DNA from: Bdellovibrionales bacterium RIFOXYA1_FULL_36_14
Lineage (GTDB): Bacteria; Bdellovibrionota; Bacteriovoracia; Bacteriovoracales; Bacteriovoracaceae
Length of the DNA stretch: 64,000 nucleotides
Reading direction: 5' to 3'
NCBI GenBank assembly: GCA_001769975.1
Contig: MEPW01000023.1
Coordinates: 1 to 64,000 of the forward strand
This document shows, in pieces, positions 19,601 to 48,109 of this stretch. The translations under genes were made by a program, and so were the position numbers. Within the stretch, counting starts at the first letter, position 1; each line of letters begins with the position of its first letter. The notes beneath the pieces were generated by a model. It was not told the DNA's origin, ran no database searches, and saw only the letters and a program-made list of their open reading frames with translations.

Positions 19601-19623
19601 ATTTGTATTGAGTGGATTAATAT

Positions 19624-20139: not shown

Positions 20140-20145
20140 GATACT

Positions 20146-23558: not shown

Positions 23559-24421
23559 TCAAGTTGCATAATTTTACAATCATTCTTGCTATCTTCTTTT
23601 ATGGTTGTGCCTCCACAGTACCACGACCTAAAATTGATTCCTTAGACAACGACTTATTTAGAAATGAATCACTCACTCAATATTCGATCGTTAACTTAGA
23701 GCTTGTGAAAAACAAGAAAAACAATGCCGCAATTGCTCTTTGTCACAATAAAAAAATCAGCGAAGGACTCGACCTATTGAAGACTTCTTTTGCTCAACAA
23801 AAAAACCACCCACTCTATTGGCTGCATGTGGGAACTTGTTACTATCTAAACGACAATTTTGACAAGGCAAAATTTTTCTATAACATATCACTGGATACTG
23901 CTTCCAAAGATGAACTGCAAAAGGCATTCGCCTATAACAATTTAGGTATACTCTATCTTAAAAATAACCATATTCTAGAAGCCCGGGATTATTTTGAAAA
24001 ATCACACAAAAGTAACCCCGATCTAATCACACCTAGATACAATCTTGGACAGATCTATATCAGATATGGATTGTTAACTGAAGCACTAAAGCTACTTGCT
24101 CCGCTTGAAACGCAAAATCCGAAAAGCATAGAACTGCTTTCATCTTTGGGTGTAATCCATACGTTGGATAATAATTCAAAGCAAGCTTTAAATTACTTTA
24201 AAAGAATCCCCGAGCCACTAAGACAACGTGAAGACATTGCTTGTGCCTATGCGCTAGCGCTTTATAACTTAAAAGATTACGCCAGTGCTAAAACAGTGTT
24301 GAGTGATCGAAAATCGCTTGGTTTAAAAGAAATGAATCAGATGGCATCCATGCTTATGGATGAAATAGATAATGAACTTAAGAATATTGAAAATTTAAAT
24401 AATAAAGTTAAGAAAAAATAG
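23555..24421 (+). CDS. TPR lipoprotein, Glt-like operon
   Basis: A 288-residue lipoprotein: lipobox FYGC (Cys18) followed by a TPR domain. Clear repeats include ALCHNKKISEGLDLLKTSF, AYNNLGILYLKNNHILEARD and RYNLGQIYIRYGLLTEALKLL. A short lipoprotein with TPRs is expected in this setting and resembles the outer-membrane lipoprotein GltE of Myxococcus in layout. It overlaps the preceding TPR gene by four bases (ATGA) and is eight bases from the FHA gene. It probably joins the periplasmic TPR scaffold to the outer membrane. Confidence 0.87.
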   Translation: MIKLHNFTIILAIFFYGCASTVPRPKIDSLDNDLFRNESLTQYSIVNLELVKNKKNNAAIALCHNKKISEGLDLLKTSFAQQKNHPLYWLHVGTCYYLNDNFDKAKFFYNISLDTASKDELQKAFAYNNLGILYLKNNHILEARDYFEKSHKSNPDLITPRYNLGQIYIRYGLLTEALKLLAPLETQNPKSIELLSSLGVIHTLDNNSKQALNYFKRIPEPLRQREDIACAYALALYNLKDYASAKTVLSDRKSLGLKEMNQMASMLMDEIDNELKNIENLNNKVKKK

Positions 24422-24429
24422 GAATACAT

Positions 24430-26301
24430 GTGGGTTTATTAAAAAATAAACAAAATCTTAATGCTTTAAAATTGGTCTTATACCAAGAAGGTACAGATCA
24501 GATAACTTTCAATTTAAGTAAAGATAAACTTTTAGTCGGCAGTTATGAAAATTGTGACATTGTATTGAAAGATTCACATGTATCTCATTATCACGCCATA
24601 ATTTTTATGAACGAAGATGGTGGAAAATTTCTGGATTTAGAAAGCGTCAATGGGGTCATTTTAAATGGAACCCGGATAAAAGAAAGTTATTTCGGTGTAG
24701 GCGACGTCATTAAAATTGGAAATTTAGAACTGCATGTTGAAGAATATCTGGCGAGCGAATCTTTACACAATTTAGACCAAAATATCTCAAGGTATAAAAC
24801 GACAATTGACACTTATATTCCCACCCAAAAATCAAGTGCTGATCTGGTCCTGGTGGACGGAGAATTTTGCGACATAGTCTTCACCGAACCGATGCATCCT
24901 CCATTAACGGACATTCCCTTAAAACCTAACAGCCTAGATTTCACCAGTTATATAGATACTGATGAGAATAAAATTCTCTATCCACTATTTAAAAAAGCTG
25001 ACCAGCTGGCCATCCAGGTCACGATTATGTCCAACCGACAAATTTTAAATATTGAGTATCTACAATTAAAAGATGGTACCTATTTCATTTCCAACAAAAA
25101 ATCCAATCGTCGCACCATCAAAATTGAAACTTTAAATTCAACCACCAAATTACCTTTTATAGATATCAAAGGTACTGATATTGAAATTCATCCCGTTAAA
25201 GATTTTTCAATGACCAACTTTAGACAAAACATTGAATTATCTACCAAAGAACCTTTTAAACTCACCCAAAATGATATCTTGAGTTTTTATTCAAACACTG
25301 TACAAATCATTGTTCAGCTAGTGGAAGCTCCACCGGAAATTAAGAAAGTGCCCTTCTTTGATTATGACAAACATATGGGCAAGCAATCCGGCATTGTATT
25401 TGGTATCTATATTGCTCTATGGTTGATCTTAACTTTCATTATAAATATCAATGAACTTAAAAAAGAACCAGTGAAAAATATTGCGGTAGTTTATCGACCG
25501 GCCGTGCGCAGTGAAGTCACTTCTGAACAAAAATCAAGCGGAGAATCAACTGTTAAACCAGAAGACAAAGGTGTAGAAAAGAATTTACGCCCAGATGATC
25601 CAATTAAACAAGCTAAGCAGGGACCAAAGACTCCGACAGAGCAACAACAGTCTAAAGCTAAACAGGAGACGTCTGCTAAGACAGAAACTAAAAATATCAA
25701 ACAGATTAAGACTTATAACTTCGCCATGGCAAACAACCTTTCATCCATGTTAAGTTCCAATACCAATGTGGAAAATGTAAAAGTTAATCAAAACAATAAG
25801 GCCATAGCTTCAGAAGGTTTTTCTAATTCAGTCAGCGACTCTTCAGACCTAAAAAGCAGAAAGATCGGAGACGCGGGAAATCTGGGTAGCGGTTTAAAAG
25901 GAAAATTTAGTACCTCCTCTGGAGCACAAGGGTTGGGTTCTAAACAGGGTATTGATACGACATATGTAGATCCTAAGACGGTTGTGCTAGGCTCCATGGA
26001 TCCCGAGCTGATCAGAAAAATCTTACAAGAATATCTCCCTCAATTTCAGCACTGCTACCAACAAGAACTTATGAGAAATGATGCGGTAAAAGGCGTAGTT
26101 CGACTTGATTTTAGAATTAATAAGGATGGTGCGGTATCGAATGTTTCCATGAGTGCTAAGAATGCCCAATTCTCAAGCCGCGGTGTAGGCTGCATTACCC
26201 AGGTAATGAATATGATCAACTTTCCTCAACCCAAAGGTGGAGGTGTAGTAGACGTTACCCAACCTCTCAACTTCTTTAGTGAGAAAATTTCAGGTAGGTA
26301 A
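24430..26301 (+). CDS. FHA - membrane span - AgmX/PglI C-terminal protein
   Basis: A 623-residue protein that links cytoplasm to outer membrane. An N-terminal FHA domain (about 13-105: LLVGSYENCDIVL, SHVSHYHAIIF, SVNGVILNG) would bind phosphothreonine partners, although the usual Arg after the first Gly is Ser. One membrane helix follows (about 322-343), then a Lys/Gln/Thr-rich linker and a Gly/Ser-rich region. The C-terminal domain (about 522-615) has the TonB-like AgmX/PglI pattern with two conserved cysteines (FQHCYQQEL and GVGCITQV) and FPQPKGGGVVDVTQPLNFF. This is the plan of GltG/GltJ, which transmit motor force across the periplasm. The start is GTG with AGGA upstream; the nearby ATG at 24428 is out of frame. 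It is the last gene of the unit. Confidence 0.88.
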   Translation: MGLLKNKQNLNALKLVLYQEGTDQITFNLSKDKLLVGSYENCDIVLKDSHVSHYHAIIFMNEDGGKFLDLESVNGVILNGTRIKESYFGVGDVIKIGNLELHVEEYLASESLHNLDQNISRYKTTIDTYIPTQKSSADLVLVDGEFCDIVFTEPMHPPLTDIPLKPNSLDFTSYIDTDENKILYPLFKKADQLAIQVTIMSNRQILNIEYLQLKDGTYFISNKKSNRRTIKIETLNSTTKLPFIDIKGTDIEIHPVKDFSMTNFRQNIELSTKEPFKLTQNDILSFYSNTVQIIVQLVEAPPEIKKVPFFDYDKHMGKQSGIVFGIYIALWLILTFIININELKKEPVKNIAVVYRPAVRSEVTSEQKSSGESTVKPEDKGVEKNLRPDDPIKQAKQGPKTPTEQQQSKAKQETSAKTETKNIKQIKTYNFAMANNLSSMLSSNTNVENVKVNQNNKAIASEGFSNSVSDSSDLKSRKIGDAGNLGSGLKGKFSTSSGAQGLGSKQGIDTTYVDPKTVVLGSMDPELIRKILQEYLPQFQHCYQQELMRNDAVKGVVRLDFRINKDGAVSNVSMSAKNAQFSSRGVGCITQVMNMINFPQPKGGGVVDVTQPLNFFSEKISGR

Positions 26302-26574
26302 TCTTAACTTTCTTAAATTTTTTGTTACTTTTATTTGAAAATATAAAAGCTCATAACCAAGTATCACCAATCAACCATCTTTATTCAACATGAATAAGGT
26401 CAAATGTATTCAATTTAATTTTTGAGTAAGATCTTTCTTGTACATATTTTCAAATCATTCTGAATTTTATACCAGTAAAATAATTTTTAATAGACGATTA
26501 TTATCTAAAATTCTAGGATTCAAGAATTATTTAAACGAACTAATATTAATTTAATGACCGCCAGGACTTACAAA

Positions 26575-28833
26575 ATGTCTTTTATTTCAAAATTACAACT
26601 TATGAACAAACCCCAAAAACATCAACCGAGTGACTCAAAAATCTTTTTTTATGGACGCATTAGTTCTGCTATCTTAGTTTCATCTGGAGCCCTAGCAATT
26701 CAAAAAATACTACAAACCAAAGTGGGTGGTACGATCCCTTTATTTCTACTTTCATATCCAGCTGTGTTTGGTATAACCGGACTATGCGGTATGATACCTG
26801 GCTTGATTGCCACGACTATAACCGGATTAGGCGTGCTGTATTTTTTTATTCCTTCACTTGACAACAATGTCATTTATAATTTGGCTGATTTACTTTCGCT
26901 TGGAATTTTTTTAGTAGTAGGTGTGGCTTCTAGTATGCTCATCCCTAGTATTCAAATAAAACAAACTCAGGCCAAGTTAGCGGCTGCTTCGGAATCACTA
27001 AAACTTTACGAGCTCATGGCCATGCACTGTCGTGATATAATTCTTTTTATAAGACAAGTTGATGGGAAAATTCTAGAATGTAATAAAGCTGCTACCCTAA
27101 CCTATGGTTTTAGTCATGAGGAGTTCAAGTCTTTAACCATTTCGAACTTGTTGGCGGACCAAGCGCCTTCTCATACTCATGACTTAAAAAGCGATACAAA
27201 CCCTAATGGCATGTTGTGGGAATCAATACATCGACGCAAAGATGGTAGCACCTTCCCCGTAGAAATTAGCTCCCAGGCTGGAGTTACCATGGGAGAAACC
27301 CGCGCATTAATTAGTGTTATTCGCGATATCTCTAAACGTAAAAAAGCTGAAGAGACTTTGCTTACTACTGGAGAACATTTACGAATCTCTCTGGCATCCA
27401 ATCATATGGCCACCTTTGATTGGGACATTATTCAAAACAAACACACCTGGGATAACATCGTACACGAATTGTTTGGAACCAACCCTGAAACTTTCAGAGG
27501 TACTACCGAAGAGTTTTACCAGATTGTTCATCCAGATGATTTAAATTGCGTAAAGGAAGCACAAAACTTGGCGATCAAAACTGGCCATAGCAAAGTTGAT
27601 TTCCGGGTTATCTGGCCAGACGGAAGTCATCATCATATCTCGTCTTGCAAAAAAGTTTATCGAAACGAAGCTGGAGTTGCCCATAGAATGATTGGCATTT
27701 GCTGGGATGTCACGGAACAAAAAGTTAATGAGAAGGCCCTGCGTTTGGCCACCGAAAGCTGGCTACGCACCTTTGATGCTATTCCCGACCTCATCGCTAT
27801 ACTTGATTCTCAACATCGAATTACTCTGGTAAACAAGGCCATGGCCTTGCGACTCAAAAAGCAACCACATGACTGCACGGGATTGTTTTGTTACAACGTG
27901 GTTCACGGACTTGATGCTCCACCAATGTTTTGCCCTCACTCGAAAACGATCTGTGACGGGCATGCGCACATGGAAGAGGTGCACGAAATTCACATAGGCG
28001 GAGACTTTCTCGTCAGTACCACTCCTATTGCAGGAGATGATGGCAAAATTCTAGGCTCAGTACATGTCGCCAGAGATATCACCGACCGCAAAAAAATGGA
28101 AACAGAACTTCGCTGTGCCATCGAATCTCAAGAGGAATTTCTAGCGATTGCCTCTCATGACCTAAAGGCTCCTCTTACCGATTTATACTTGACTCTAAAT
28201 TTTATGGAAGAAATAGTTAAGCAATCCCCCATGGACCAACCACAACTTTTCGATATGATCTCTCATGCGCTTAAGTCAGGGCAGCAGTTAGTTGTCCTAC
28301 TGGATGAGCTGCTGGATATTACCAGAATTCGCGCAGGAAAACTGGTGCTAGAAAAAGAAGACATGGATCTCAAATCCGCCGTCTTAGAATGGGTATCAAT
28401 TGTATCCACTGAAGCTCGCCAAAAAGGAAGTCAGATAACCGTCAAAGCCAGTGATTCTGTGGTAGGAGAATGGGACCCGGTACGCATCAATCAAGTGATA
28501 TCTAACTTGCTTTCCAATGCGATTAAATACGGCGAAGGAAAACCTATAGAAGTCACAGTGCTAGCCGATTTGCAAACTAAATGCGCTAAACTGATTGTAC
28601 GCGATCAAGGAATCGGTGTTCCTTTAGAAATGCAGTCCAAGATTTTTAAACGCTTCGAACGCGCAGTATCTGATCGTATGATTCACGGTCTTGGACTGGG
28701 CCTTTATATTGTAGGCCAGATTGTCCACGCCCATGGCGGCTCTATCAGCCTTAAAAGCGAGCCTGGCAAGGGATCTCAGTTTACAGTTTTGCTCCCCTTG
28801 AGCGATATAGAGTGCACACTGGTAGATGTATAA
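26575..28833 (+). CDS. PAS-domain sensor histidine kinase
   Basis: Membrane sensor kinase, about 752 residues from ATG 26575 (AGGA eight bases upstream). The ORF track's ATG at 26554 has no ribosome-binding site and adds seven residues. Order: a cluster of hydrophobic helices resembling the KdpD-type DUF4118 sensor region (about 25-130), PAS (about 140-260, YGFSHEEFKSL), a PAS_3-type domain (about 270-400, VHPDDLNCV), a third PAS domain with several Cys/His (CPHSKTICDGH), then HisKA with phospho-acceptor His528 (IASHDLKAPLTD) and HATPase_c (NLLSNAIKYG, DQGIGVP, GLGLGLYIV). No response regulator is adjacent. The Cys/His-rich third PAS could hold a cofactor or metal. Codon use looks slightly less AT-rich than its neighbours. 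Confidence 0.93.
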   Translation: MSFISKLQLMNKPQKHQPSDSKIFFYGRISSAILVSSGALAIQKILQTKVGGTIPLFLLSYPAVFGITGLCGMIPGLIATTITGLGVLYFFIPSLDNNVIYNLADLLSLGIFLVVGVASSMLIPSIQIKQTQAKLAAASESLKLYELMAMHCRDIILFIRQVDGKILECNKAATLTYGFSHEEFKSLTISNLLADQAPSHTHDLKSDTNPNGMLWESIHRRKDGSTFPVEISSQAGVTMGETRALISVIRDISKRKKAEETLLTTGEHLRISLASNHMATFDWDIIQNKHTWDNIVHELFGTNPETFRGTTEEFYQIVHPDDLNCVKEAQNLAIKTGHSKVDFRVIWPDGSHHHISSCKKVYRNEAGVAHRMIGICWDVTEQKVNEKALRLATESWLRTFDAIPDLIAILDSQHRITLVNKAMALRLKKQPHDCTGLFCYNVVHGLDAPPMFCPHSKTICDGHAHMEEVHEIHIGGDFLVSTTPIAGDDGKILGSVHVARDITDRKKMETELRCAIESQEEFLAIASHDLKAPLTDLYLTLNFMEEIVKQSPMDQPQLFDMISHALKSGQQLVVLLDELLDITRIRAGKLVLEKEDMDLKSAVLEWVSIVSTEARQKGSQITVKASDSVVGEWDPVRINQVISNLLSNAIKYGEGKPIEVTVLADLQTKCAKLIVRDQGIGVPLEMQSKIFKRFERAVSDRMIHGLGLGLYIVGQIVHAHGGSISLKSEPGKGSQFTVLLPLSDIECTLVDV

Positions 28834-28932: not shown

Positions 28933-28948
28933 TGGCACTTATCTTGCA
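28933..28948 (+). promoter_or_regulatory. Sigma-54 promoter of metzincin operon
   Basis: TGGCACTTATCTTGCA fits the sigma-54 consensus TGGCACG-N4-TTGCA with one mismatch and has the obligatory GG-N10-GC spacing. The -12 element lies about 60 bases before the ATG at 29008, leaving a leader of about 50 bases. Sigma-54 promoters need an AAA+ activator, so the operon is likely switched on only under a particular condition. No activator gene or clear upstream activator site is visible here. Confidence 0.7.
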
Positions 28949-29007
28949 CTCTTATCTATAAATATAGTTATTTGAGTTTTTTATATTTTAAAGACAAAAG
29001 GATGCAT

Positions 29008-32000
29008 ATGCAAAACCAAAAACACCTTATTACTCTCAGCTTTTCCTTGGTAATCGTAGTGATAGTGTTAGCTTCATGTAGCCTTAAAAGACCTGAAAGT
29101 GCAGCACCACTTGAAACCGGTATTAGCAAAGATTTTTTTACGACTAAAGTAATTAATCCAATGACTAAAAAAGAAGTATTACAGGGAAAAAAGTTTATGT
29201 GTGGTTGGGCACCAGTGGCGGAAGTTGGAGCATATGCCAAACATTATAATGATCATAATGTTATTGAAAATTGGCATTGCAATGTTGTTTTCACTTTTAA
29301 TCATGATCATTCACGTCTAATCGGAAAACTAGTTAACCCCAGTTATCCAGATGATATAAGCAAATGGACTACGGCTTTAGAAATTCCCATTACCAGAAAT
29401 TATACTCGGGAATATAAAAAAGATGAGTATCAACGAGTAACCAATGAAATCGTCGAAGATGAAACTAAGAATCATCCATCCGCCAGACCATTAATGGATC
29501 TGGATTTTTCCAATATGATGGTATCTGAAATTGGTTTTCGTAATATAACAACTGAGAGTGATTTAATAAGACCCGGGTCTTCTACTCAAAACATTGAAGA
29601 TATTGAAATTGATAACGCTACCGGTTTTATCGGTTTTACCTTAACTTTCAATGACCCTGATGTTTCCAGCGGTAATTCATTCGAAAGAAAAATCCGTTAC
29701 AACTTCCTGGAAATGAAAACTAACGAAAAATTCGAGTCCACCCCATGGCACGAAAAAAATGCTTCTCATTTAAATGCTCTTCATATTCTTGGCAAGAAAG
29801 TAGAAGGAGCTTCTTCTGCTTTCTTTGCTGCACATTGGGATAAATATAAAAGCCGTAAAGTTTATCTCATTGGTTTCCCAGAGAAATATTTTAAAATCGC
29901 AAAAGAAGCGTTGGGAAATTATAACAAACTATTTAAAGACCAAGTTGCTGATAAAGATCACCCCATTACTCATGACTTATTTATCCCGGAGCGAGGAGAT
30001 CATTTAAAATACTCCTTCGACCTACGTTATACCAGCATCACTTGGATTGATGATTTTGAAAAATCCCTAAACGCACCGCTTGGAATAGGTACGGCTTTAG
30101 CGGATAGATTAACCGGTGAAATTCAGTGGGGGGGCGTAACACTTTGGGGAGGCATGATTGAATATATAATAAAATCAGCAGCACCAAGCTTGGATCTTAA
30201 TTCTTCTCTTCCAGCTTCTCATGGTTTAAACTGGCTTGATAAAATAGAAGACAATGCTTTTGCATTTAATTATCAATTTGATTTCCCCGTCTCTCTAGAT
30301 CCTAATTTTAAAGGCCCATTTTTCAACACGTTTGTCAGCAACTCTTTAAATAAGATATTATTTGATGATTCCAAGCTCATGCTTGGCCAAAAAGATTTTG
30401 TTAAAACAAAACTAAATGATGAGTATCTAGAAAATTTTATTACAAACCAGGCCAGTTGGTTAAATAACCATCATAATGCGCAAAAGAGAAATTATCAGGA
30501 TTTTAGTTTTAATCATTATTTTAAAAATCTAGTCGGCAATAAACAATATAGCCAAAGTCAGGTTATGCATGACTTTAATAATAAGGATGCACTTCACTAC
30601 CATATGAATCAGGCAAAACAACATCTCAACTCCCCTATTTGTGTTATTTCTACGGAAGACGTCATTGCTGATATCCTAGAAGCCAAAGAGCGTGGCAATT
30701 TTGATCCAGAAAAAGTTATGGAAGCCTTTGTGAAAGATGTTATCCTTCATGAATTTGGACATATGATCGGACTCGGCCATAATATGGCAGAGAATATTCT
30801 TCCTACGGTTTCTGCAGTTATGGATTTGAATATTCATCCACCAAAAGTTGATATGAACGATAGCGAATACCAAGATCTTGATAATCTAAAAAAGATCATG
30901 CAATCAGAAAAAACCAAGTATACCGTACCTAAGAAATACTGGTTGCCACTTGAAATAGCCGCTATAAAAAACATGACTAATGCGTCCACAGTGATGGGTT
31001 ACAAGAACTCAAGAACGGACGTTCTATATGACAATCATGAACAAATTTTGCCAGGTCCTAGTGACGTTCAAGTCCTTAAATATCTTTACAATCAACAATA
31101 TGCCACGTTTAAATACGGCGAAGAAGATTTTACCTATTACAAAGTTCCTGCCACCGGACAAATTCCACTTTTTGCTCCTCGTAACGTAAAAGATCGATCA
31201 AGTAGATTTGTTTCATACTTTCCATCATGCACCGATTTTGAAGCAACCTTTGACACTAGTCCTTTATGTAAAAGATGGGATCGGGGTTATGATGTAAAAA
31301 CCCTGGCAGAAGATTACATGCTCTCCATTGATAATTTAAGAGATTCCAAACTTATTGCCAAATCAGAATTAAAAGGTGCTCGCAGTATTTATCGATTAGA
31401 AAACTATCTCTACGGTCACAATTTGGAGATGATGGGACGCCTTCGACTTTTTTATGATTATATGAGAGATCTCTTTAAAGATGAAATTGATTCCATCTCC
31501 CATGACGTTGAAGCAATCAAAATGTTTTCCACAGATTGTATGAGAGAAAAGATGGAAAACGCTTCTTTAATAAATCTATTCACCAATAATCCTAAATTAA
31601 AAGAACTCTGCCAAGTCAATAAAAAGATCGTTGAAAAGCTTGGTAGTTATATGGCCAAAAGCGGTAGAGATTTTACTAAAATTGATTATAAAAATAAAAC
31701 CGCACCTGGGGGAATGAGTTTTGGTGATGCTGACCCAAACTGGACTCAAATGAGTGGAACTTACCAAATATTATCCGATTTACCCTTTAAAATAGTGGCC
31801 CTCAACACCTTAACCTTAAGTCAACCTTATGCTTACCTTTATGGATGGATGCTTGAGATGGACAACTACTCCCATGAAAATGGCGGTTACCTTTATAGCT
31901 CACTTTATCCCAATGAATATTCACACGCGATCAAAAATGCCGTCCAAAACAATCTGCAGTTTGGTACCAATGGCGAAAAAACTATTCTGAAAAAAACTGC

Positions 32001-32778
32001 ATTAAGCCTTGGATACTTTCTCCAGCGAGGAAGTTGGGAAACGGCTAACGATAAATTCAGATTCCCCAAACCTACTTTTTTAAAGAAAATTGCTGACCAA
32101 ACCCAATTTAATGTTTCGTATGTGGCAGTTATTTTAACCGCCGTTAAGATGGAAGGAAACAATGCTCCACCTAATCGTTACAGCTCATTTACTGGAAGAA
32201 TTCTAGATATTAACAGTGGAAAAGATACTTTAGCTGGAGAAGTTTTTGTGCTACCGGATAGTTCCATTTTGGTTAAAGGTGCCGCCAACACCATTATTAA
32301 CCCTATCACTAAATTACAATTTTATAGCGACACTGAAGCCTTTGCTTGGGCCTATAAAATTTCTTTTGATTCAGATGATAATGACAGTCTATCATCCGAA
32401 AGTGTCAAAAACATATTCCCTAACATGGTTAATAATGCAATTGATGCTTGTATAAATGGTAAAGATGGCAACCAAAATGGACTAAAACATTTCTTCAATA
32501 AGATGGCCAACCCTGATGTTAACAATTTATTGGAAAAAGAAGATGAGTATATTGGCTTTGAAATACTTCCGGGAATTGCCCAATCAGCTGCTTTCCAAAA
32601 TGATTTCAAAGATTCTATCAAAGACAACTACCAAAGATTTGTTAAAAAGTTCCCTTCTCATGAACTAATTGAAAAGACTTGTTTTGAAGCTTTAAACGGA
32701 GTTGGATTAACCAGCGCGAGCGCAGGGGCCATCAATGGATATTGGATGCCTGGAATGCGTGAGTACATAGAGGAGTAG
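29008..32778 (+). CDS. Large metzincin-type metalloprotease lipoprotein
   Basis: The ORF track starts at a GTG at 28909, but ATG 29008 has AAGGA six bases upstream and begins directly with a lipoprotein signal (lipobox LASC, Cys24), giving 1256 residues. The zinc site HEFGHMIGLGH (from His581) is a full metzincin motif, with Glu582 as catalytic base. A matching Met-turn (STVMGY, Met663) lies about 80 residues later. Long flanking regions (25-550 and 700-1256) have no family I recognise. It is the first gene of a tight four-gene unit with two giant lipoproteins and a barrel, three bases before the next gene. A surface-anchored protease acting on host or envelope proteins is likely; the substrate is unknown. 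Confidence 0.88.
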   Translation: MQNQKHLITLSFSLVIVVIVLASCSLKRPESAAPLETGISKDFFTTKVINPMTKKEVLQGKKFMCGWAPVAEVGAYAKHYNDHNVIENWHCNVVFTFNHDHSRLIGKLVNPSYPDDISKWTTALEIPITRNYTREYKKDEYQRVTNEIVEDETKNHPSARPLMDLDFSNMMVSEIGFRNITTESDLIRPGSSTQNIEDIEIDNATGFIGFTLTFNDPDVSSGNSFERKIRYNFLEMKTNEKFESTPWHEKNASHLNALHILGKKVEGASSAFFAAHWDKYKSRKVYLIGFPEKYFKIAKEALGNYNKLFKDQVADKDHPITHDLFIPERGDHLKYSFDLRYTSITWIDDFEKSLNAPLGIGTALADRLTGEIQWGGVTLWGGMIEYIIKSAAPSLDLNSSLPASHGLNWLDKIEDNAFAFNYQFDFPVSLDPNFKGPFFNTFVSNSLNKILFDDSKLMLGQKDFVKTKLNDEYLENFITNQASWLNNHHNAQKRNYQDFSFNHYFKNLVGNKQYSQSQVMHDFNNKDALHYHMNQAKQHLNSPICVISTEDVIADILEAKERGNFDPEKVMEAFVKDVILHEFGHMIGLGHNMAENILPTVSAVMDLNIHPPKVDMNDSEYQDLDNLKKIMQSEKTKYTVPKKYWLPLEIAAIKNMTNASTVMGYKNSRTDVLYDNHEQILPGPSDVQVLKYLYNQQYATFKYGEEDFTYYKVPATGQIPLFAPRNVKDRSSRFVSYFPSCTDFEATFDTSPLCKRWDRGYDVKTLAEDYMLSIDNLRDSKLIAKSELKGARSIYRLENYLYGHNLEMMGRLRLFYDYMRDLFKDEIDSISHDVEAIKMFSTDCMREKMENASLINLFTNNPKLKELCQVNKKIVEKLGSYMAKSGRDFTKIDYKNKTAPGGMSFGDADPNWTQMSGTYQILSDLPFKIVALNTLTLSQPYAYLYGWMLEMDNYSHENGGYLYSSLYPNEYSHAIKNAVQNNLQFGTNGEKTILKKTALSLGYFLQRGSWETANDKFRFPKPTFLKKIADQTQFNVSYVAVILTAVKMEGNNAPPNRYSSFTGRILDINSGKDTLAGEVFVLPDSSILVKGAANTIINPITKLQFYSDTEAFAWAYKISFDSDDNDSLSSESVKNIFPNMVNNAIDACINGKDGNQNGLKHFFNKMANPDVNNLLEKEDEYIGFEILPGIAQSAAFQNDFKDSIKDNYQRFVKKFPSHELIEKTCFEALNGVGLTSASAGAINGYWMPGMREYIEE

Positions 32779-32781
32779 ACC

Positions 32782-35700
32782 ATGAAGCAAAATATTAAAA
32801 ACCAGATCGTCTCTCTTTTATTACTCAGCTTATTGGCATGTTCCAAAGAAAACATCCAAGAAGCTAAACATATGGATAAAGTTGACTCTGACCTATCTCA
32901 ATCAACATTCATACCAAGCAATATTAATCCGGCTGACCTGGATAATTTAAACAACATTGATCTCGATCTTTTCAATACCACCAACCTAAAATCAGCGAGC
33001 GGCCCAGCACTCAAAAATGCGGAAGCTTCCCTTCGCAATTTCATTTCACAAAATTATATAGATCAGTTTCAAAACACTCAAAAGTTAAAAAACCTACTAT
33101 CTACCTATAATCAAATCATCATTGCCCTGATTACAAACAATCCACGCAAAGACGATAAAGACATCAACACAATTCTTGACCGTTATTACGATCTCTTACT
33201 GGCTGATTGCGATGAATCCATGAAGGGTTGTGTAAACCTAAGTTTCTTTAACAAAGACTATTATAATACCGCCACTATTTTACAAGATAAGGTTTACACA
33301 ATTGATAAAAACATTGAGCTTAAGAAAAATAAATCAAAAGATTTTAATCAAGAACTAGTGACGTATTATCAATATTTGGATCTTATTTATGAACTGAAAA
33401 ATTCACGCACCAATGAAATGCTGGACGCTCTTTATATTAAATATTCTTTCGAATATGCCAAACACCTAAACCAAACCAAGCAAACCGAAAAGCTTAAAGA
33501 GCATGGTAGTTTTTTTGAAAATAAATTAAAAGCCTACCTGGAAATCGCTGACAAATCTCAAACCAAGATTCACACACTCAACGTCATTGGACAATTTGAT
33601 CCTTGCCACTACTCAAAAAACAACCAAACCCAATTTTTTAAATATGGTCAACCGGAATTACTTAGCTTAAGTTCAGAATTCATGGGAAATGAGCTTATTA
33701 AATGTTTCTCCAAAGCCATGAGTGAAAATAAAAACAATTCCAGTTTACAAGAAAAAAGTTTTTTACAAACTGTCGAAACACTCAATGCCAAATATTTAGA
33801 TATTTTAAATAATATGGATATGACTTCCCTTAAAAATGTTTTTACCAACAACCCAAGTTACTTATATATAATCGATAATCTCTATAGAAGAAACTGGTCA
33901 GAATTAGATGCGCAAAGCTTAACCGATAAATTAAACCTCAACAATGACATTATGTTAAATGTTGTGGAAGCTTATATTAAATACGAGTTAATCAATGCTG
34001 TAATCAAAACCAATGCAATTTTGCATAATATTTACTACAATGACAAAACCGTAACCAGTAAAAACATCTACTCAAAGGCCATTGACGAAAATCTTGAACT
34101 CATTACCATCTGGAAAGAGTTTAATGATCGCACTGAAGCCTTAAAACGTTTCACCCTATACAATCTTAACCAAAAAAGAAACGCTGATCAGATTGCCAAA
34201 TTTAATGTACTTTTTGAAGATCTAGAAAAAAACATTAAGTATATCTCAAGCGTACCCCAGATGATGCTCCTTACTTATAAAATGGCGCAAAAGGAATTCA
34301 AAGTTTCGGTAATGGGTTTTGGTGGATTAACCCAAATTGACACTAACGACATTATCAATAAATTTTTCGGCGGTGATTTTCCATTATGGTTTAAATTTGT
34401 AGAAAATACTAATCCCCTTAAAAAGATGGAGCTGCTTTATGCATTCGATTTTGCTTTAAAAACCAAAGTCTTTGACAATTTTGCGCAAAAAAATGACACC
34501 CAAAAAACTAAAATTAGTCCTGCGGATTTCTTTAAAGTAGTAATTGGACGATATTTAAGAACAACCCGGGAGTCGGTTCAATTACTACTTAATGACACTG
34601 AACTGCTGAATAAGAAAAACCTTACTACTATTTATAAAATTTGTAATAATGACCAATATTCTCTATCAATTGCTTTAAAAGATTTATCTTATAAAACTCT
34701 CCTTGGAAATATTCCAGAAATTGCCCAATTTCACAACGGTAATATCGCTAATGCCCTAAAATCTGCGCGCAGTAATTTGCTCATTGAACTATCTTTTGTA
34801 CAAAATTTAATTGATCTCTATAAGTCTCACAACCCCAACGCAAAAGACAGTATTGACGAAGAAACCAATGCGATCAAAAACAAACTGGCCATGGTTTACC
34901 AAAACGTCCTAACTTTTGAGACCAACACCTCTGACTGTATGTACAAGCTCATTAAAAAGGAATACGCCCAACAACAGGCCTTGTTTGAAATGGAAAAAAA
35001 CCATATTAAAACCATTTTTGACAAGATGATCAGTCTGCAAGATATGCCTTCCTCACAAAAAGATGAACTGGAAGCTACCTTCAATCAAGAACTCAATACT
35101 TCTAATCTCAAAGATATTCTTAAGCGTGAACTTGTATCAGAAGATGAATACTTTGATAAAATCAGCAATAATTATTATTATTTTTCAAAGCTCGGTGTCC
35201 TCGGTCGAATCACCAATTATTTAAAAGAAATTAATGCCAATATCATTATTGATGTACCAAGTATGATGCAACATAATGATCTTTACCAGACAGATAAAGG
35301 TAATACTATTCACGCCGTATTTTTACCTCAGGAAGGTAGTTATGAAGAAAGACTACAAATATTCACTAAAAATGTGCTAGAAAAAATGTTAAGCGGGGCC
35401 ATGGCCCAGATCAGATGGACTGAAGACTCTACTACCATGAATGTTAATTATTTGTACGACAAATTGATTTTGCTAGTAGAATTACTCAAAGGAAAAAGCC
35501 ATAATCTTTTTAACGAAAATGAATCTTTTTGCACAGGCAAGCTAGCAACGCTTACTAAAAAAGCATGTTTGGAAAAAGTAAAAATCACTCCGACTAGAGT
35601 AATTCAAGAAACTTTAAATGTGGCCAAACTTTTATCATTAAGCGCACAAGATATCGAAATGTTAAAATTAATTAATTTAGATAAAAAATTCCCCCAGATT

Positions 35701-36174
35701 TTACAAGAACGACTCTTTTTTAAATCGCAAACCGAACCGCTGACCCTTTTGGAAAAGATCTATGCTGAAATAAGTGACAACAACCAACTCAAAAATGAAG
35801 CCGAAACATTTCATAAACAAATTGTACAAAGTCGTCAAAACTTGCTTTTTATGCCAAGTGCAAACATTAAATCAATTATGACTGCTAATTATGCCCCTCT
35901 CATTCATGACTCTTTTGGCCTAATAAATGATTTTAATAAGGCAGTCACTCGAATAGAGAATGCTCACAGCCAGGATAATGAATTAGGGATAACCCAGTAC
36001 TTTTATAAAATAGATCTGGAAGGTGATGAGCACCAGTTCATATCAATGGTTAATGACACAAATGAACTTACTTATTTAAACCCAGATAAAATGTCAGACA
36101 ACGATAAAATAATCATCAACTTTCATAAGGATACCCAAAATTATTTCAATGCTTCCAAAGCTGGGAAAAACTAA
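32782..36174 (+). CDS. Giant helical lipoprotein A (paralogue of 37018-40239)
   Basis: A 1130-residue lipoprotein (lipobox LLAC, Cys20). It is Asn/Lys/Leu-rich and almost all helical, with no domain I can name. Parts align with the second lipoprotein of the operon: KNIKYISSVPQMMLLTYKMA matches MNIKYMISFPEMMILLYEFA, and MELLYAFDFALKTKVFDNFA matches EILYAFYFALNTGLFRDFA. They also share a DECDES-GC / CSADS-GC element near residue 150. So this is one family present twice. It begins three bases after the metalloprotease stop and its TAA overlaps the ATG of the barrel gene by one base. It may be a partner or substrate carrier of the protease; this is inference from context only. Confidence 0.85.
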   Translation: MKQNIKNQIVSLLLLSLLACSKENIQEAKHMDKVDSDLSQSTFIPSNINPADLDNLNNIDLDLFNTTNLKSASGPALKNAEASLRNFISQNYIDQFQNTQKLKNLLSTYNQIIIALITNNPRKDDKDINTILDRYYDLLLADCDESMKGCVNLSFFNKDYYNTATILQDKVYTIDKNIELKKNKSKDFNQELVTYYQYLDLIYELKNSRTNEMLDALYIKYSFEYAKHLNQTKQTEKLKEHGSFFENKLKAYLEIADKSQTKIHTLNVIGQFDPCHYSKNNQTQFFKYGQPELLSLSSEFMGNELIKCFSKAMSENKNNSSLQEKSFLQTVETLNAKYLDILNNMDMTSLKNVFTNNPSYLYIIDNLYRRNWSELDAQSLTDKLNLNNDIMLNVVEAYIKYELINAVIKTNAILHNIYYNDKTVTSKNIYSKAIDENLELITIWKEFNDRTEALKRFTLYNLNQKRNADQIAKFNVLFEDLEKNIKYISSVPQMMLLTYKMAQKEFKVSVMGFGGLTQIDTNDIINKFFGGDFPLWFKFVENTNPLKKMELLYAFDFALKTKVFDNFAQKNDTQKTKISPADFFKVVIGRYLRTTRESVQLLLNDTELLNKKNLTTIYKICNNDQYSLSIALKDLSYKTLLGNIPEIAQFHNGNIANALKSARSNLLIELSFVQNLIDLYKSHNPNAKDSIDEETNAIKNKLAMVYQNVLTFETNTSDCMYKLIKKEYAQQQALFEMEKNHIKTIFDKMISLQDMPSSQKDELEATFNQELNTSNLKDILKRELVSEDEYFDKISNNYYYFSKLGVLGRITNYLKEINANIIIDVPSMMQHNDLYQTDKGNTIHAVFLPQEGSYEERLQIFTKNVLEKMLSGAMAQIRWTEDSTTMNVNYLYDKLILLVELLKGKSHNLFNENESFCTGKLATLTKKACLEKVKITPTRVIQETLNVAKLLSLSAQDIEMLKLINLDKKFPQILQERLFFKSQTEPLTLLEKIYAEISDNNQLKNEAETFHKQIVQSRQNLLFMPSANIKSIMTANYAPLIHDSFGLINDFNKAVTRIENAHSQDNELGITQYFYKIDLEGDEHQFISMVNDTNELTYLNPDKMSDNDKIIINFHKDTQNYFNASKAGKN

Positions 36175-37004
36175 TGAAATATGTTTTATCGATCACATTT
36201 ATTTTTTCACTCTTAAGCTTACATACTGTAATCCTGGCTAGCGAAGAGACTAAAACATGGGGAGCAACTGCCGGTTACATGATCACTAGCGATTATGCGG
36301 ATGAACGCTCCCCTAGACTCTACGAAAACAAAGTTTTATTAAACCTTTCAGGAAACTTTCTTCCTTATCAAATAACTACCACCCTGAAAAATTCTATTAA
36401 CTTCAACACTCTGGGTAACTCAGTTTATGAAGAAAATCCTGACTCTCATGGAATTCATTTTGCTGATACGATTTTAGTTTTTAACAAGACGTTAGCCTTA
36501 TCCCAGACCAATTCACAATTTCCTGGAATTCATCAACTAACACCCATAGTTTTTAATATATTTCCAACCAGCGACAGCTCAAGATATGCAGGATATCGAT
36601 CATCTCCTGGAGCACAGGCTGTGTTATCTTCTACCTTCTTTGATGGACATTATAATCTGAAAAATGGGATAAATTTTATTAAAGTCATTAACACTTACAC
36701 CCACAATCCAGCTAACCACACACCATCTCCATCCTTGATAAGCGTTTTTGAACAAGATCATACTTTTGCTTTAGGCCTGGGATTTTCCGTAGGTGCTGGC
36801 TTTAGTTTTAAATATTCAAAGGATGTGGATGGTAATAGCAATACCACTTTTGAAAATAGCGCTTCGCTTGAATTCGCCTATAAACAAATGAGTGCATCAC
36901 TAGTTTACTCAGGTGGCGATCATACTACAATTGACAAAGTGGAGCTCTGGTACGTTGATAATACTAGAGAATTATTAACCTTGGTTTTGACTTATACCAT
37001 TTAA
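36174..37004 (+). CDS. Probable outer-membrane beta-barrel of metzincin operon
   Basis: A 276-residue exported protein (signal MKYVLSITFIFSLLSLHTVILAS). The mature part is built of short amphipathic strands rich in Thr, Ser, Tyr and Phe (KVLLNLSGNFL, FALGLGFSVGAGFSFKY, SASLEFAYKQMSASLVYSGG, LLTLVLTYTI) as in outer-membrane barrels of about 10-12 strands. It has no cysteines. It starts on the stop codon of lipoprotein A and lies 13 bases before lipoprotein B. It could be a channel or an anchor for the two lipoproteins. I do not recognise the family. Confidence 0.75.
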   Translation: MKYVLSITFIFSLLSLHTVILASEETKTWGATAGYMITSDYADERSPRLYENKVLLNLSGNFLPYQITTTLKNSINFNTLGNSVYEENPDSHGIHFADTILVFNKTLALSQTNSQFPGIHQLTPIVFNIFPTSDSSRYAGYRSSPGAQAVLSSTFFDGHYNLKNGINFIKVINTYTHNPANHTPSPSLISVFEQDHTFALGLGFSVGAGFSFKYSKDVDGNSNTTFENSASLEFAYKQMSASLVYSGGDHTTIDKVELWYVDNTRELLTLVLTYTI

Positions 37005-37017
37005 GGAAGAAGTACTT

Positions 37018-40000
37018 ATGAAAAATACTTTTAATCTAATTCTTCTTGTTATTACTATGATTATGATTAGTTCATGTAACAAGAAAATTGAATCCAGTCA
37101 AAACCAACATAAAAATGCTGTTTTAAATTACAGCGAAGTATCGGCGATTGATAATTCTGTTTGTAGTTTTGAATTAAATCATGAGAAGCTTGAAAGAGTT
37201 TTAATAAATCCAGCATACTCCGCCCATAACCAGTGTGTACTTAAATTTTTAGAAAAACAGATTGCCAAACTTACCTCTTCACTCGACTCAAATAACGCCG
37301 ACACTTTAAAAAGCATGAATTTAATTTTCGAAGGTTGCAGCGCTGACAGTTTAAATGGTTGTTTATATTTTCAAAAACTAAAATCGATCTTGGCCATGAG
37401 AGATTTTTTACTAAAGCTTGCGACAGTTCATGAATCTAATATTCAAAAATACTATTTCTTTCTAAATGCATGGTTTGAGCTTAAAAACGAACAATTAGAT
37501 GCTAGACTTTTTGAATTATACTTAAAGAAAGAAAAAGAATACCGCAAGCTAATCGCTCACGATAAAACCTTACTTGATTTACATAACGAAACTCTACATC
37601 TGATATCCCAAAATGCCTCTCAGTTATCTAACAATTCAGCTTTCAAAGCCTTCATTCTCTCTTACAAACTCCCCACCCATAAAAATATTTCCAATCTAGA
37701 CAAAATAGTTTTGGAAATTATCTTTTCTAACTCTCAAGATAGAGATTATAAAAGCAAATTAGAGACTTTTATAAATAATGAAATTACTAGTATCAAAGCC
37801 ATCGATAACTTCAAACAAGCCGACCTTGATTATTATTTAAAATCCCTTGATATCTCAAGCTTGCAATATGATTTTTATTATTACATGATAGCTAGCGCTT
37901 ATCACAACAGAAGTGATAGTAATTTTTTAGAAACTCTCTGGAAATTCTACCAAGGAGATACCCAAAAGCTAAGTGATACTACGAATTCCTATGTGCGCAT
38001 CAAATTCCTTCAAGTGCTTAGTTTATCCCATCAAAACATAGTTAAATATTTTCATGAAAAAGATTATACCCCTAATAATTTCTTTATTAAGGCCATATCA
38101 AAAAGCGAACAAGTATCTCCTCATTTTCAGGAACTTTTTCAAAAATCTGAATATCTTCAACTATTTTTAGAAAGCTTATTAATGAAAGGTAACTCTAAGT
38201 CTCAAGCGATCTATCAGGATTTATCAAGAAATCTTTTTTCTGGGATCAAAATGAATATAAAATATATGATTTCGTTTCCAGAAATGATGATCTTACTTTA
38301 TGAATTTGCCAAAAACGGACTGGAATTTAAAATCAACTCCCACTATAATGGCCTAGTACAAGTCTCATCTAATCAGATCATGAAAGAATTTTTCGAAGGT
38401 AGATTTTATTCATTTTTTAATTATTCCGACGATACTAAAGCACTTACTTCTGAAGAAATCCTATATGCTTTCTACTTTGCACTTAATACCGGTCTCTTTA
38501 GAGATTTTGCTTCCAAGCAAAATGAAACCCAATTGGTAAAAGACTTTATTAAAATGGTGGCTACGCAACTTTCCAACATCGAAATTAATAAACTCACCAC
38601 GGATTTTAACGTATTTACCAATAATTATAAAGCCGATACCACCTATAACATTTTTTTAAACCTATGTAATTCACCAAAAGGTTATGTTCACCAGCTAACC
38701 CTCGATGATCTCGATCGGTCGGTGCTTCAGGGTAAGATAGTTGGGGAACGTATTGTTAATAATCCTGGCTTCTATGGTCCCTACTTTGAAAGGAGTTTGG
38801 AGCGCATTCGCACCAATGTGCAAAACATTGAATTTAAAGTTACCCAGATGATCTCCATTTATGAAAAATACCTTCGTAAGTTTAATACTAATGAAACCGT
38901 TGTGAAAGAAATTATGGCAGACTTAAATTCTGCGCTAGATCCTATCACTCATATCAAAACCGCATATTTAACTCAATTTATGAAACGTCACCAGGAAATT
39001 GATAAATGCCATTTTTCTATCTATCAAAAAGAAAAAAAATTACAAGAGAATCTGATAAAATATGAAGAACTTTATCTTAGAAACTTGTATAACAAATACC
39101 AGGAAGCTTACGCCACTAATTCGCTGGAAGAATTAAATAGGGAAATTCAAAATTATAACTTGAAAGATTTTATAGGTCTTAATAAATTCAAAAATGGTCA
39201 CTACTACTACACCCAGATAGATTTTTTAATACGCGCAAAGCAATTTATCGAAGTTGGACAGACTCTGGATAATCAAAAACTTCCTGCACTTTCTAAGGGG
39301 GTGAAAATTTCTGTCCCCACTAATGAATATAATTGGATTCAACACTCTTTTTATGCTGGGTCACAAGATAAATATTTTACTCTTGATATTAGCAATATGA
39401 CGGAAGATGAATTTGTCTTAAATGCACTTTCCAACATTGTGACTGACACTACCAACCCAAATGGTTTTGTCACCTGGTTTGTGGATAAGAGTTATTACAC
39501 TTACAATCTTCCTTCTTTTAATGCCAAATCCCGCACGTTGGTATCCCTGTATAAACTTGGTGATTTTGACATTTACGAAAAAGAAGAGTGTAGCTTAAAA
39601 AACAGTGGGAAAGGTTGTAAAAGAATTAAACAAAAATTTTCCGTAGATAACCTGGTAAAGATTGGATCTAATTTAAAAAACTTTTTACACATTGATGACC
39701 AAGAAGCTTTGATACTTAAAAAAGTTGGAAGAAAGAAAAGAATAGATGATTATCTACAAGCTTTTAGTTTCATGCATCCGATGTCTAATCGCCCAGAAAA
39801 CTGGGGAATATTTGACTATCTCTATTATTCCCTGAAAGAACCTTTGCTAGATGCTTACTCAAAATTTCCATGGGACATGGAAGATGACCATGTAAGTAAA
39901 ACACTTGATAAGCGAAAAGGAGCTTTGGAAACGGCTTTTGATTATTGGCAGGCCAGAAATAATCGCGGAGAATTCTTATTTAACATCAGTAATTCTTTTG

Positions 40001-40239
40001 AAGCAGAAATGAATCAAAAATTTAAAGAAATTGCCTGGAATGAAATCAACAAGATCAGAAGCTTTGAAGCGGCCATTAACCCGGAAAACAACCCGGCTAT
40101 TGAAAAGTTACAAGGTCAAATTCGCTACGAAATTGACAAAACCGTTGATAAAGATATTTTGAGTGACACTCTCCTTGAGGAAGTAGATGGAGTTATTAGA
40201 AACTTTCATCAACAAACAAATTATTTTTATAAACAATAA
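37018..40239 (+). CDS. Giant helical lipoprotein B (paralogue of 32782-36174)
   Basis: A 1073-residue lipoprotein (lipobox ISSC, Cys20) with AAGGAAGAAG before the start. It shares segments and overall order with lipoprotein A, clearest between residues about 415 and 530. Its C-terminal 250 residues differ, being richer in aromatic and charged residues (SFMHPMSNRPENWGIFDYL), and have no equivalent I can align by eye in A. Probably a duplication within the operon followed by strong divergence, so the two copies may form a heteromeric assembly. It is the last gene of the unit and a hairpin follows at once. Function unknown. Confidence 0.85.
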   Translation: MKNTFNLILLVITMIMISSCNKKIESSQNQHKNAVLNYSEVSAIDNSVCSFELNHEKLERVLINPAYSAHNQCVLKFLEKQIAKLTSSLDSNNADTLKSMNLIFEGCSADSLNGCLYFQKLKSILAMRDFLLKLATVHESNIQKYYFFLNAWFELKNEQLDARLFELYLKKEKEYRKLIAHDKTLLDLHNETLHLISQNASQLSNNSAFKAFILSYKLPTHKNISNLDKIVLEIIFSNSQDRDYKSKLETFINNEITSIKAIDNFKQADLDYYLKSLDISSLQYDFYYYMIASAYHNRSDSNFLETLWKFYQGDTQKLSDTTNSYVRIKFLQVLSLSHQNIVKYFHEKDYTPNNFFIKAISKSEQVSPHFQELFQKSEYLQLFLESLLMKGNSKSQAIYQDLSRNLFSGIKMNIKYMISFPEMMILLYEFAKNGLEFKINSHYNGLVQVSSNQIMKEFFEGRFYSFFNYSDDTKALTSEEILYAFYFALNTGLFRDFASKQNETQLVKDFIKMVATQLSNIEINKLTTDFNVFTNNYKADTTYNIFLNLCNSPKGYVHQLTLDDLDRSVLQGKIVGERIVNNPGFYGPYFERSLERIRTNVQNIEFKVTQMISIYEKYLRKFNTNETVVKEIMADLNSALDPITHIKTAYLTQFMKRHQEIDKCHFSIYQKEKKLQENLIKYEELYLRNLYNKYQEAYATNSLEELNREIQNYNLKDFIGLNKFKNGHYYYTQIDFLIRAKQFIEVGQTLDNQKLPALSKGVKISVPTNEYNWIQHSFYAGSQDKYFTLDISNMTEDEFVLNALSNIVTDTTNPNGFVTWFVDKSYYTYNLPSFNAKSRTLVSLYKLGDFDIYEKEECSLKNSGKGCKRIKQKFSVDNLVKIGSNLKNFLHIDDQEALILKKVGRKKRIDDYLQAFSFMHPMSNRPENWGIFDYLYYSLKEPLLDAYSKFPWDMEDDHVSKTLDKRKGALETAFDYWQARNNRGEFLFNISNSFEAEMNQKFKEIAWNEINKIRSFEAAINPENNPAIEKLQGQIRYEIDKTVDKDILSDTLLEEVDGVIRNFHQQTNYFYKQ

Positions 40240-40248
40240 ATGCTTAGA

Positions 40249-40283
40249 AAGCTAATGTAAATTACTTTAGTTTACATTAGCTT
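40249..40283 (+). terminator. Hairpin ending the metzincin operon
   Basis: AAGCTAATGTAAA and TTTACATTAGCTT pair perfectly over 13 bases around a nine-base loop, ten bases after the stop codon of lipoprotein B. Only a short T run (TTTTC) follows, so release may be less efficient than at the other terminators, but the stem is very strong. Confidence 0.8.
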
Positions 40284-40441
40284 TTCATTCGTATTTTCAA
40301 TAGGTTAAAATACCAATACTGCCTTATTTATTGGCCTATTTCTATGGTCGACCTCTGCTAGGCAAATCCTATCTACCCCCAGTAAGCCTTTAAAACCTTT
40401 ATGTTTTTATGCTTTTATCCGATACGTTGTGCAGAGTGGAA

Positions 40442-40496: not shown

Positions 40497-43400
40497 ATGA
40501 TGTTTGTAAGTACTAAAAACACATTCCTTTTAGCATTACTGACCGCAGCGCTGGTCCTGATGAGCTGTATTCAACCCCCACCTGCTTCTAAAAGTGCCGG
40601 AAAATATGGTGCAAACCCAACCACCCCCCGCATTAATCTTTCAAGTGGTACCACCACCATCACCGAATCAAATACCACAATAAATATACCAGTTTATTTG
40701 GATATAGCTAGCGGTAGCACGGTAACGGCTTTCTGGCGTATAGTAAATTCAGGCGATTTGCCGACAACCAGCGCTTTTTCAGTAGCTGCCGGGTCTGTCA
40801 GTATTCCTGCCGGATATAAAATTGGTAATATCGCACTGGTTGCTTCTGATGACTACCTCTACGAAACTAACGAAATTGTTTATCTAGAAATCTATAGTGT
40901 TACCGGGGCGATTATTTCAAATCCATCCACTAAATTTATTACCGTTATTGATAACGACTCTGGTAACAAACCGACCCTCTTTTTCCCATCTACCTTCGCG
41001 CAAACCACGGAAGATTCCACGGCCTCAATCAATGTAGCGGTTTCCATCAGTGCTCCTTTAAATATTGACGTGGATATTGCTTTTCTAGTTTATGGGGATG
41101 CCGTTTATCCAGCCGATCACGGGTTAACGAGTGGGATGATTCACTTCCCAAGAGGAACCACCACTTTGAATATCAACGTTCCTATTGTAAACGATGCAGT
41201 TTTAGAAAATAATGAAAATATTTATATCGAACTTATAGGTATTGACGAAATTCAACTCACACCAGCTACGAGTGTCTTTAATTTAAGTATTCTAGATGAT
41301 GAAGCAGGTGCGGTAATCAATTTCACACCCCCACTCACGATAACCGCTACAGAAAGTGATGGTGCGGTGTATGCCACTGTCAACCTTTCCTTTGCTCATG
41401 GTATTGATACCATCATTAACTTTACCGCCAGTGGCGATGCTACTTGGGGCGCCGACTACACCGCCTCCTCCAGCATTACTATTCCAGCGGGAATAACCAC
41501 TTATACCGTAACTTTCTCGCTGATTAATGATTTAAAAGACGAATACGATCAAACCATCGAATATATTCTAACAACTCCAAGCAGAGGCACGATTGGGGTC
41601 AATAACTCATTTGTTATCACTCTCCAAGATGACGATAATATTCCTACCTTAGCTTTTAATTCTTCCACTTCAAGCATTGTAGAAGGGCAGACCGGTTTTT
41701 TTAGTCGGATGATTCCACTTACTTTGAATGTGGCCAGCGAAAAAATAATTACCATCGATTATAATTTATCAGGCACAGCCACCGTTAATTTGGATTATAG
41801 CAATTTTACCGGTTTTACCGGAACCTCTTCTGGCTCGTTAACTATTGCCGCTGGATCAACATCATTTGATCTCTATTATATTGCCCACGGTGATCTGATT
41901 GATGAAGATAATGAAACAATTATTGTTGACCTGGCCACCACCAGTCAGGTTAATGTGGAGGCAACGGGAATCATTACTCATACCGTAACCATCGTGGATG
42001 AAGACCTCGTGCCGACCATATACTTCCCGCAAACCAGTGCCCTCATTGATGAAGATATGATTACTTATAGTGTAACGGTCAGTCTGCGCACGCCCTCCCA
42101 AAAAATAATCACCGCAGATTTTTCAACGGCAGCTGGCTCAGCTTCTCCTGGGGGAACGGATTACGACTTCCCAAGTGGAAGTATCATCACTTTTAATCCC
42201 GGAGAAATGACTAGTAATATACTCATTAGTGTAGTTAATGGAGATGGTGTTGAACCACTAGAGGATATCGTCCTCATCCTTGATTCCATAACTAATTCCG
42301 TAACCTCTACCCTGCCTGCCTACCCTGACACTTTCACCTTAAATATAGTTGATACCGACGCACTGGCTGAATTATCTTTTACTACATTATCATCAACCGT
42401 GGCTGAAAATATTTCTCCGGCCCGAATCAGTATTACGGCCATACTTGATAAAATCAGTGCAAGGGATACGGAATTTGAATTTGAATTATCAGGGACAGCT
42501 ACGACCAGCGCTCCTTATCAAGATGTTCTCTTACCGGCCATACCGATCATCATTCCAGCGGGCAGCTTAAGTACCATATTCAATCTAACTATGGTAAACG
42601 ATGTCCACTTAGAATCCACCGAGTATTTAACCCTCACCGCAACCAACTTAACAAGTTATGCGACCATCACCGATATTGCCTCTGTTACATACAACCTCAC
42701 CATTTTAGAAGACGATGTGATAATACCGCAAATCAGGTTTTCTTCCGCGAGTTCAATATATGTCACTGAAGATGCGACAAACTTTTCCATTCAAATTCAA
42801 AGCGATCGTTCCTTTGGTTTTGATATCGAAGCCTATATCACCTTAACTGCTTCGGAAACTACCGCAACCTCCAGTCCTTCAGCCTTCGCTGATTTTGACT
42901 GGCCGGGCTCAGTGACGGGAGTGGCCACAATTACGATACCGGCCTACGGTACCACCGCGGCTTTCGATATCGGGATATTCGAAGATATTGCTGACGAAAT
43001 AGATCCTGAATCCATTAGCTTAAAAATTGATTCAGTATCATTAGAGGCTACGGTAGGAAGTATTAACACCTCATTTATTTATATTAATGATGACGACGGA
43101 CCACCAAGTGTGGATTTTGTAGATGTAACTTTGGATGCGACAGAAGGGTTTTCTTTTACTGCTACAGTCACCCTAAACGCCACTTCGGCTTTTGATGTGT
43201 CTATCCCTATTTCCATAAACGGAGGTCTAACCACCGCCAATGCCAGCGACTACACCTTCGCGCCTTCAACTTTGAGTATTCCAGCAGGTAGCTTGATTGC
43301 CACCACCTCGCTTATTTCCATCACCGACGATTTATTAGACGAAGCCACGGAACATTTAGTTTTACAATTGGGAACCCTGGTGAACGCGGTAGCCGGACCA

Positions 43401-48007: not shown

Positions 48008-48109
48008 AACTTCTCCCCTTAGGTTAGCAAAACTGTCAGATATTAACATAAATGTGAAATAATAAACAAATGATAAAATGATTAGCGCATGTAGTCTTTA
48101 GAGATTTTT

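Follow-up and report, generated by a model that had tools for sequence, protein, structure and literature searches.

Four close-packed genes on the plus strand of a contig from Bdellovibrionales bacterium RIFOXYA1_FULL_36_14 raise the question of whether a predicted surface protease, two giant lipoproteins and a small barrel make up one envelope assembly or are neighbors with separate tasks. The genes, encoding a metzincin lipoprotein, LP1, the barrel and LP2 in that order, occupy positions 29008 to 40239 of a 64-kb stretch of DNA (64,000 nucleotides, called the window here) in a 2.06-Mb draft genome that is 86% complete. An initial annotation, made from the sequence of the window, had described four tightly packed genes with spacings of 3, -1 and 13 bases, and all of the open reading frames (ORFs) were found at those positions and with those sizes (Table 1). 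The mechanical ORF of the metzincin begins at GTG 28909, upstream of the predicted promoter. We consider ATG 29008 the likely translation start and disfavor GTG 28909 because the sequence AAAAGG fits the former as a ribosome-binding site. The residues that follow the lipid-bearing cysteines of the three lipoproteins are S, S and N. By the sorting rule for E. coli lipoproteins, which may not hold in this host, these residues would favor the outer membrane.

Table 1. Features of the operon and of related loci. Positions are those of the window unless a locus is named.
Feature	Position or loci	Strand	Evidence or description
Predicted sigma-54 promoter (-24/-12), TGGCACTTATCTTGCA	28933..28948	+	Exact match; conserved in sister genome G001; RpoN encoded
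Probable ribosome-binding site AAAAGG, for ATG 29008	28996..29001	+	Direct sequence reading
Metzincin lipoprotein, long class	29008..32778	+	ORF, 1256 aa; lipobox LASC with Cys24
Zinc-binding active-site motif HEFGHMIGLGH, residues 581-591	30748..30780	+	H581, E582, H585, G588 and H591 invariant in 25 homologues
Met-turn VMGY, residues 662-665	30991..31002	+	M663 and Y665 invariant in 25 homologues
LP1, giant lipoprotein, predicted to be mostly alpha-helical	32782..36174	+	ORF, 1130 aa; lipobox LLAC with Cys20
Probable small outer-membrane beta-barrel with signal peptide	36174..37004	+	ORF, 276 aa
LP2, giant lipoprotein, diverged paralogue of LP1	37018..40239	+	ORF, 1073 aa; lipobox ISSC
Intrinsic-terminator-like hairpin, 18 pairs	40247..40285	+	8 bases 3' of the LP2 stop
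Metzincin-LP-barrel-LP loci	window, L020, L022, L023, L024, L057, L058, L059, L063, L066, L069, L072, L073		13 loci in 13 genomes
Metzincin-LP-LP loci without barrel	L021, L062, L065, L067, L068, L075, L076		7 loci
Barrel-metzincin-LP-LP locus	L071		1 locus
Plain barrel-metzincin pair of the window genome	L098 4031-8914		Contig C18; 1328-aa metzincin
Matrixin-like lipoproteins near the operon (family f20)	L058 1020-1670, L059 15422-16081, L063 16104-16808, L074 10439-11101		

Expression of the operon had been attributed to sigma-54. The promoter candidate TGGCACTTATCTTGCA is the sole zero-mismatch sigma-54 site in the window, and the whole genome holds two perfect sites including this one, compared with one match to a reversed control pattern; by count alone, the match could be chance. 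In the sister species, a site is present at the same place just upstream of the metzincin gene, with both the GG (-24) and the GC (-12) elements untouched in a leader that is 89% identical. RpoN is encoded in the source genome (RpoN DNA-binding domain, E = 1.4e-63). Because the site is kept in the leader of the sister species and RpoN is encoded, we take the predicted promoter as real. Operon loci from other families had no convincing sigma-54 site, and no full-score site was found outside the genus. RpoN control therefore appears to be a trait of the genus and not of the system, so that the proposed promoter stands for this operon but does not define operons of its kind.

The metzincin assignment was borne out. 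The window protein carries both hallmarks of the metzincin clan, the zinc-binding motif HExxHxxGxxH and a downstream Met-turn, and both were also found in all 19 of the long homologues checked. The two elements are 70 residues apart in the window metzincin and 33 to 70 residues apart in its relatives, and Cys24 of the lipobox is invariant in the alignment. Against the Pfam family DUF4953 (PF16313, Met-zincin), the protein scored 22.2 bits (E = 9e-5; curated cut-off, 24.2), and in a genome-frame search it scored 24.5 bits, just above the cut-off. DUF4953 was matched at E <0.01 by 21 of 25 long-class relatives and by 15 of 15 shorter-class relatives. On these profile scores, the window metzincin appears to be a remote member of the DUF4953 group. 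A second conserved region, around D338-R340 and G370, is common to the long and shorter classes, and the start of small matrixin-like proteins aligns near positions 270 to 308 of the metzincin profile. These two observations suggest a catalytic domain running from about residue 270 to beyond the Met-turn, with an insert at about residues 390 to 560 (about 170 to 190 residues). A literature search for DUF4953 or DUF5117 found no text, and metzincin relatives were absent from the plasmid collection searched.

Metzincin-profile matches of 216 to 234 aa at four loci were considered as possible fragments; they are instead separate matrixin-like lipoproteins. In family f20, such a lipoprotein (about 220 aa, with HELGHVLGL..H) is encoded no more than a few kilobases from the operon, and in at least L059, L063 and L074 a response regulator is found between the two. 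At L074 (4555-8390, genome G248), the metzincin reading frame is in two pieces, reflecting a frameshift or an assembly error.

Homology between LP1 and LP2 (BLASTP E = 3e-26, 26% identity over 515 residues) agrees with the earlier reading of LP2 as a diverged copy of LP1. Their family, comprising 40 proteins, had no consistent match in Pfam and no match in NCBIfam, and its profile had no meaningful match among PDB sequences. The lipid cysteine Cys20 is invariant in the alignment, and little or no variation is seen at cysteines 143, 150, 621 and 719, a pattern that exported proteins would be expected to show. An AlphaFold model built from a four-row alignment of sequences from the window and locus L001 was mostly helical but too poor to confirm a fold (mean pLDDT, 44). 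In a quick tree built from 39 LP proteins, whose long branches make its details unsafe, the first- and second-position proteins fall largely into two groups: the position labels require 3 changes, compared with 13.3 when shuffled. The duplication that produced LP1 and LP2 is therefore older than most of the operon's spread.

The barrel is less conspicuous in profile searches. Its family matched the Pfam model OMP_b-brl in 2 of 24 members (best E = 4e-6) and, weakly, LamB and DUF2490 in one member each; the window barrel itself had no match in Pfam, and the barrel profile retrieved nothing meaningful from PDB sequences. Most of the relatives terminate in an aromatic residue. An AlphaFold model from a two-row alignment, again of window and L001 sequences, had a mean pLDDT of 31, too low to confirm a barrel. 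One ORF (L021 18890-19501) that was first aligned as a barrel was found not to be one and was left out. The initial annotation had recognized no family for three of the four proteins. With generic barrel models set aside, LP1, LP2 and the barrel indeed belong to none described, but the metzincin can probably be placed in the DUF4953 group.

If the four genes form a set, they should be inherited as one. We surveyed 369 Bdellovibrionota genomes with metzincin and LP profiles and scored no more than two candidates in each, which makes copy numbers lower bounds. Long-class metzincins were present in 23 genomes, in two of which (G113 and G256) they were found only as fragments on short contigs. LP relatives were present in 21 genomes, and every one of these also carries a long metzincin (hypergeometric P = 3e-32, uncorrected for phylogeny although related genomes are not independent). 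The LP-bearing genomes span six families (f1, f6, f11, f18, f20 and f25), with few genomes within f1; the only sister species in the set, Bdellovibrionales bacterium RIFOXYC1_FULL_37_79, was also the sole find of a single-protein contig search. In 13 loci, the order metzincin-LP1-barrel-LP2 is kept on one strand with overlaps or short gaps, with contig or stretch ends cutting the metzincin in L072 and the last LP in L023 and L024. Eight further loci have the order metzincin-LP-LP, and no LP match without a metzincin was seen among the fetched loci; the genes were not found apart outright. Neighbors outside the operon vary from locus to locus and between families. In L022, by our reading of the ORF sequences, the operon sits within a murein-synthesis cluster. 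Inter-genome distances correlate across all four proteins (Spearman coefficients of 0.42 to 0.70; Mantel P = 0.0005 to 0.014), which would fit inheritance or transfer as a block, with a contribution from shared species history. Because LP relatives and long metzincins co-occur and gene order is kept, the four-gene set is a real conserved evolutionary unit. The proposal of one four-component set has to be loosened in one respect: the barrel is optional, being absent from seven of the eight metzincin-LP-LP loci and placed in front in the other.

The metzincin and the barrel are not peculiar to the operon: relatives of the two pair across Bdellovibrionota without the giant lipoproteins. Shorter lipoprotein metzincins (mostly about 970 to 1700 aa, typically starting with CAKE or CAKK) are widespread in Bdellovibrionota, with a DUF4953 match in 15 of 20 relatives. 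In 24 of 28 loci, a member of the window barrel's family is encoded no more than two genes away from the shorter metzincin, as counted with a barrel profile that was seeded partly by barrels from such loci. Nine newly fetched loci that contributed no seed (L098, L099, L101-L106 and L108) likewise have an adjoining barrel, with profile E values of 7e-12 or better; L110 has a neighboring match as well, to a barrel that was a profile seed fetched again. Among 527 other ORFs, the profile matched four, all near partial or neighboring metzincins. Because the shorter metzincin adjoins a same-family barrel at most of these loci, the window operon looks like an enlarged form of a widespread two-gene protease-barrel module. 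The window genome also carries the plain pair (Table 1); the sister genome's counterpart of this metzincin (L113) showed no adjoining barrel. At L026, L082, L094 and L108, a separate lipoprotein of 650 to 800 aa without an LP-profile match is located in front.

What, then, might the operon build? We see about an even chance that it encodes a single outer-membrane proteolytic assembly in which LP1 and LP2 are scaffold arms. The three lipoproteins would be lipid-tethered to the outer membrane and the small barrel embedded in it. The metzincin, presumably an active zinc protease, would be the catalytic part. The barrel, apparently a long-standing partner of this protease group, would probably anchor the enzyme, help to display it or conduct its products. 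LP1 and LP2, as ancient copies of one gene, may have been added to an ancestral protease-barrel pair as large helical arms, with the probable task of holding or selecting the substrate. RpoN would switch the set on in this genus. The complex need not include the barrel, because of the seven loci without it and the one with it in front. A more specific proposal is that of an undescribed Bdellovibrionota machine, in which a metzincin lipoprotein and a dedicated barrel gained, in patchy lineages, a pair of giant helical paralogues from a new lipoprotein family to give one surface complex, possibly acting on prey. We regard this as possible but somewhat doubtful. A role in predation is unsupported, because the set is patchy.

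Co-inheritance of the four proteins does not prove physical contact, and they might be surface proteins with separate functions that are merely co-transcribed. The barrel and metzincin do occur without LPs, and metzincin-LP-LP occurs without the barrel. We consider this reading very unlikely, given that across six families the genes strictly co-occur, keep their order and diverge in a correlated way, and that the neighborhoods beyond the operon vary from locus to locus. Nutrient acquisition would account for a lipoprotein, a barrel and a hydrolase together, with the protease digesting external protein, LP1 and LP2 binding the products and the barrel importing peptides in a SusC/SusD-like manner; regulation by nutrients would be consistent with sigma-54 control of the operon in this genus. 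Pfam searches, however, found a TonB-dependent receptor or SusD match in no member, the mature barrel, of about 250 residues, is much smaller than SusC, and seven loci do without it, all of which leave this explanation improbable.

A function in envelope maturation or shedding fares somewhat better, although we still think it rather unlikely. Here the metzincin would cut proteins that the cell itself secretes or displays on its surface, such as adhesins and large Calx-beta proteins, with LP1 and LP2 as adaptors and no role for prey. The presence of the protease-barrel pair in most Bdellovibrionota sampled suggests a housekeeping role in the envelope, and a 2194-aa Calx-beta/RCC1 lipoprotein is encoded directly downstream of the window operon. 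The four-gene form, in contrast, is as patchy (21 of 369 genomes) as a housekeeping function should not be, and the Calx-beta neighbor is not kept beyond the genus. The single proteolytic assembly at the outer membrane is thus the reading that we prefer.

Such an assembly would have partial likenesses among known systems. The window metzincin shares its active-site and Met-turn region with the DUF4953 metalloproteases, but that family lacks the conserved upstream and downstream regions, the large insert and the operon partners of the long class. The metzincin fold signature is likewise shared with the Metzin_BF0631 (TIGR03952) zinc metalloproteinase lipoproteins, the serralysins and the archaemetzincins. 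Profile matches to these groups are weak and mostly do not extend beyond the active-site region; the window protein is far below the archaemetzincin cut-off. In SusC/SusD-type systems, lipoproteins and a barrel are encoded together, as they are here, but the window operon differs in its small barrel and in lacking SusD and TonB-dependent receptor matches. The small barrels of OMP_b-brl (PF13505) resemble only the two family members noted above, and our barrel family is defined instead by its metzincin neighbor. No anti-phage defense model in PADLOC matched the operon, and a literature search found nothing on such an operon. With no known secretion, S-layer or defense system matched, the earlier statement that this composition corresponds to no described system still holds. 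Both the enzyme family and, in general outline, the combination of lipoproteins with a barrel are already known. The sources searched contain no description of the LP family, the barrel family or the assembly.

Little is known of the envelope machinery in predatory bacteria and their relatives. A large lipoprotein family that lies outside Pfam, NCBIfam and PDB and is linked to a single enzyme and a single barrel family offers a testable module; a second target is the protease-barrel pair found across the phylum. In proteomic work on B. bacteriovorus, the zinc-metalloprotease homologue Bd3137 is among the early-abundant proteins, and many proteins important in predation are still uncharacterized (PMC12546842).

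Other genes lie on both sides of the operon in the window. A run at 18857-26301 encodes a MotA/TolQ/ExbB protein, two ExbD/TolR proteins, a 970-aa protein, a TPR protein and an FHA-domain protein, and it is similar to the motor and envelope portion of gliding clusters of the Agl/Glt type. A histidine kinase gene at 26554-28833, immediately upstream of the operon, encodes a DUF4118 domain along with several PAS domains and is kept in the sister species. The downstream lipoprotein, at 40497-47081, consists of Calx-beta repeats followed by RCC1-like repeats at its end, and a histone-deacetylase-family protein is encoded on the minus strand at 47078-48049. In the sister genome, the first 304 residues of the Calx-beta lipoprotein, which are all that lie within the fetched stretch, are 80% identical, and other genes lie between it and the operon.
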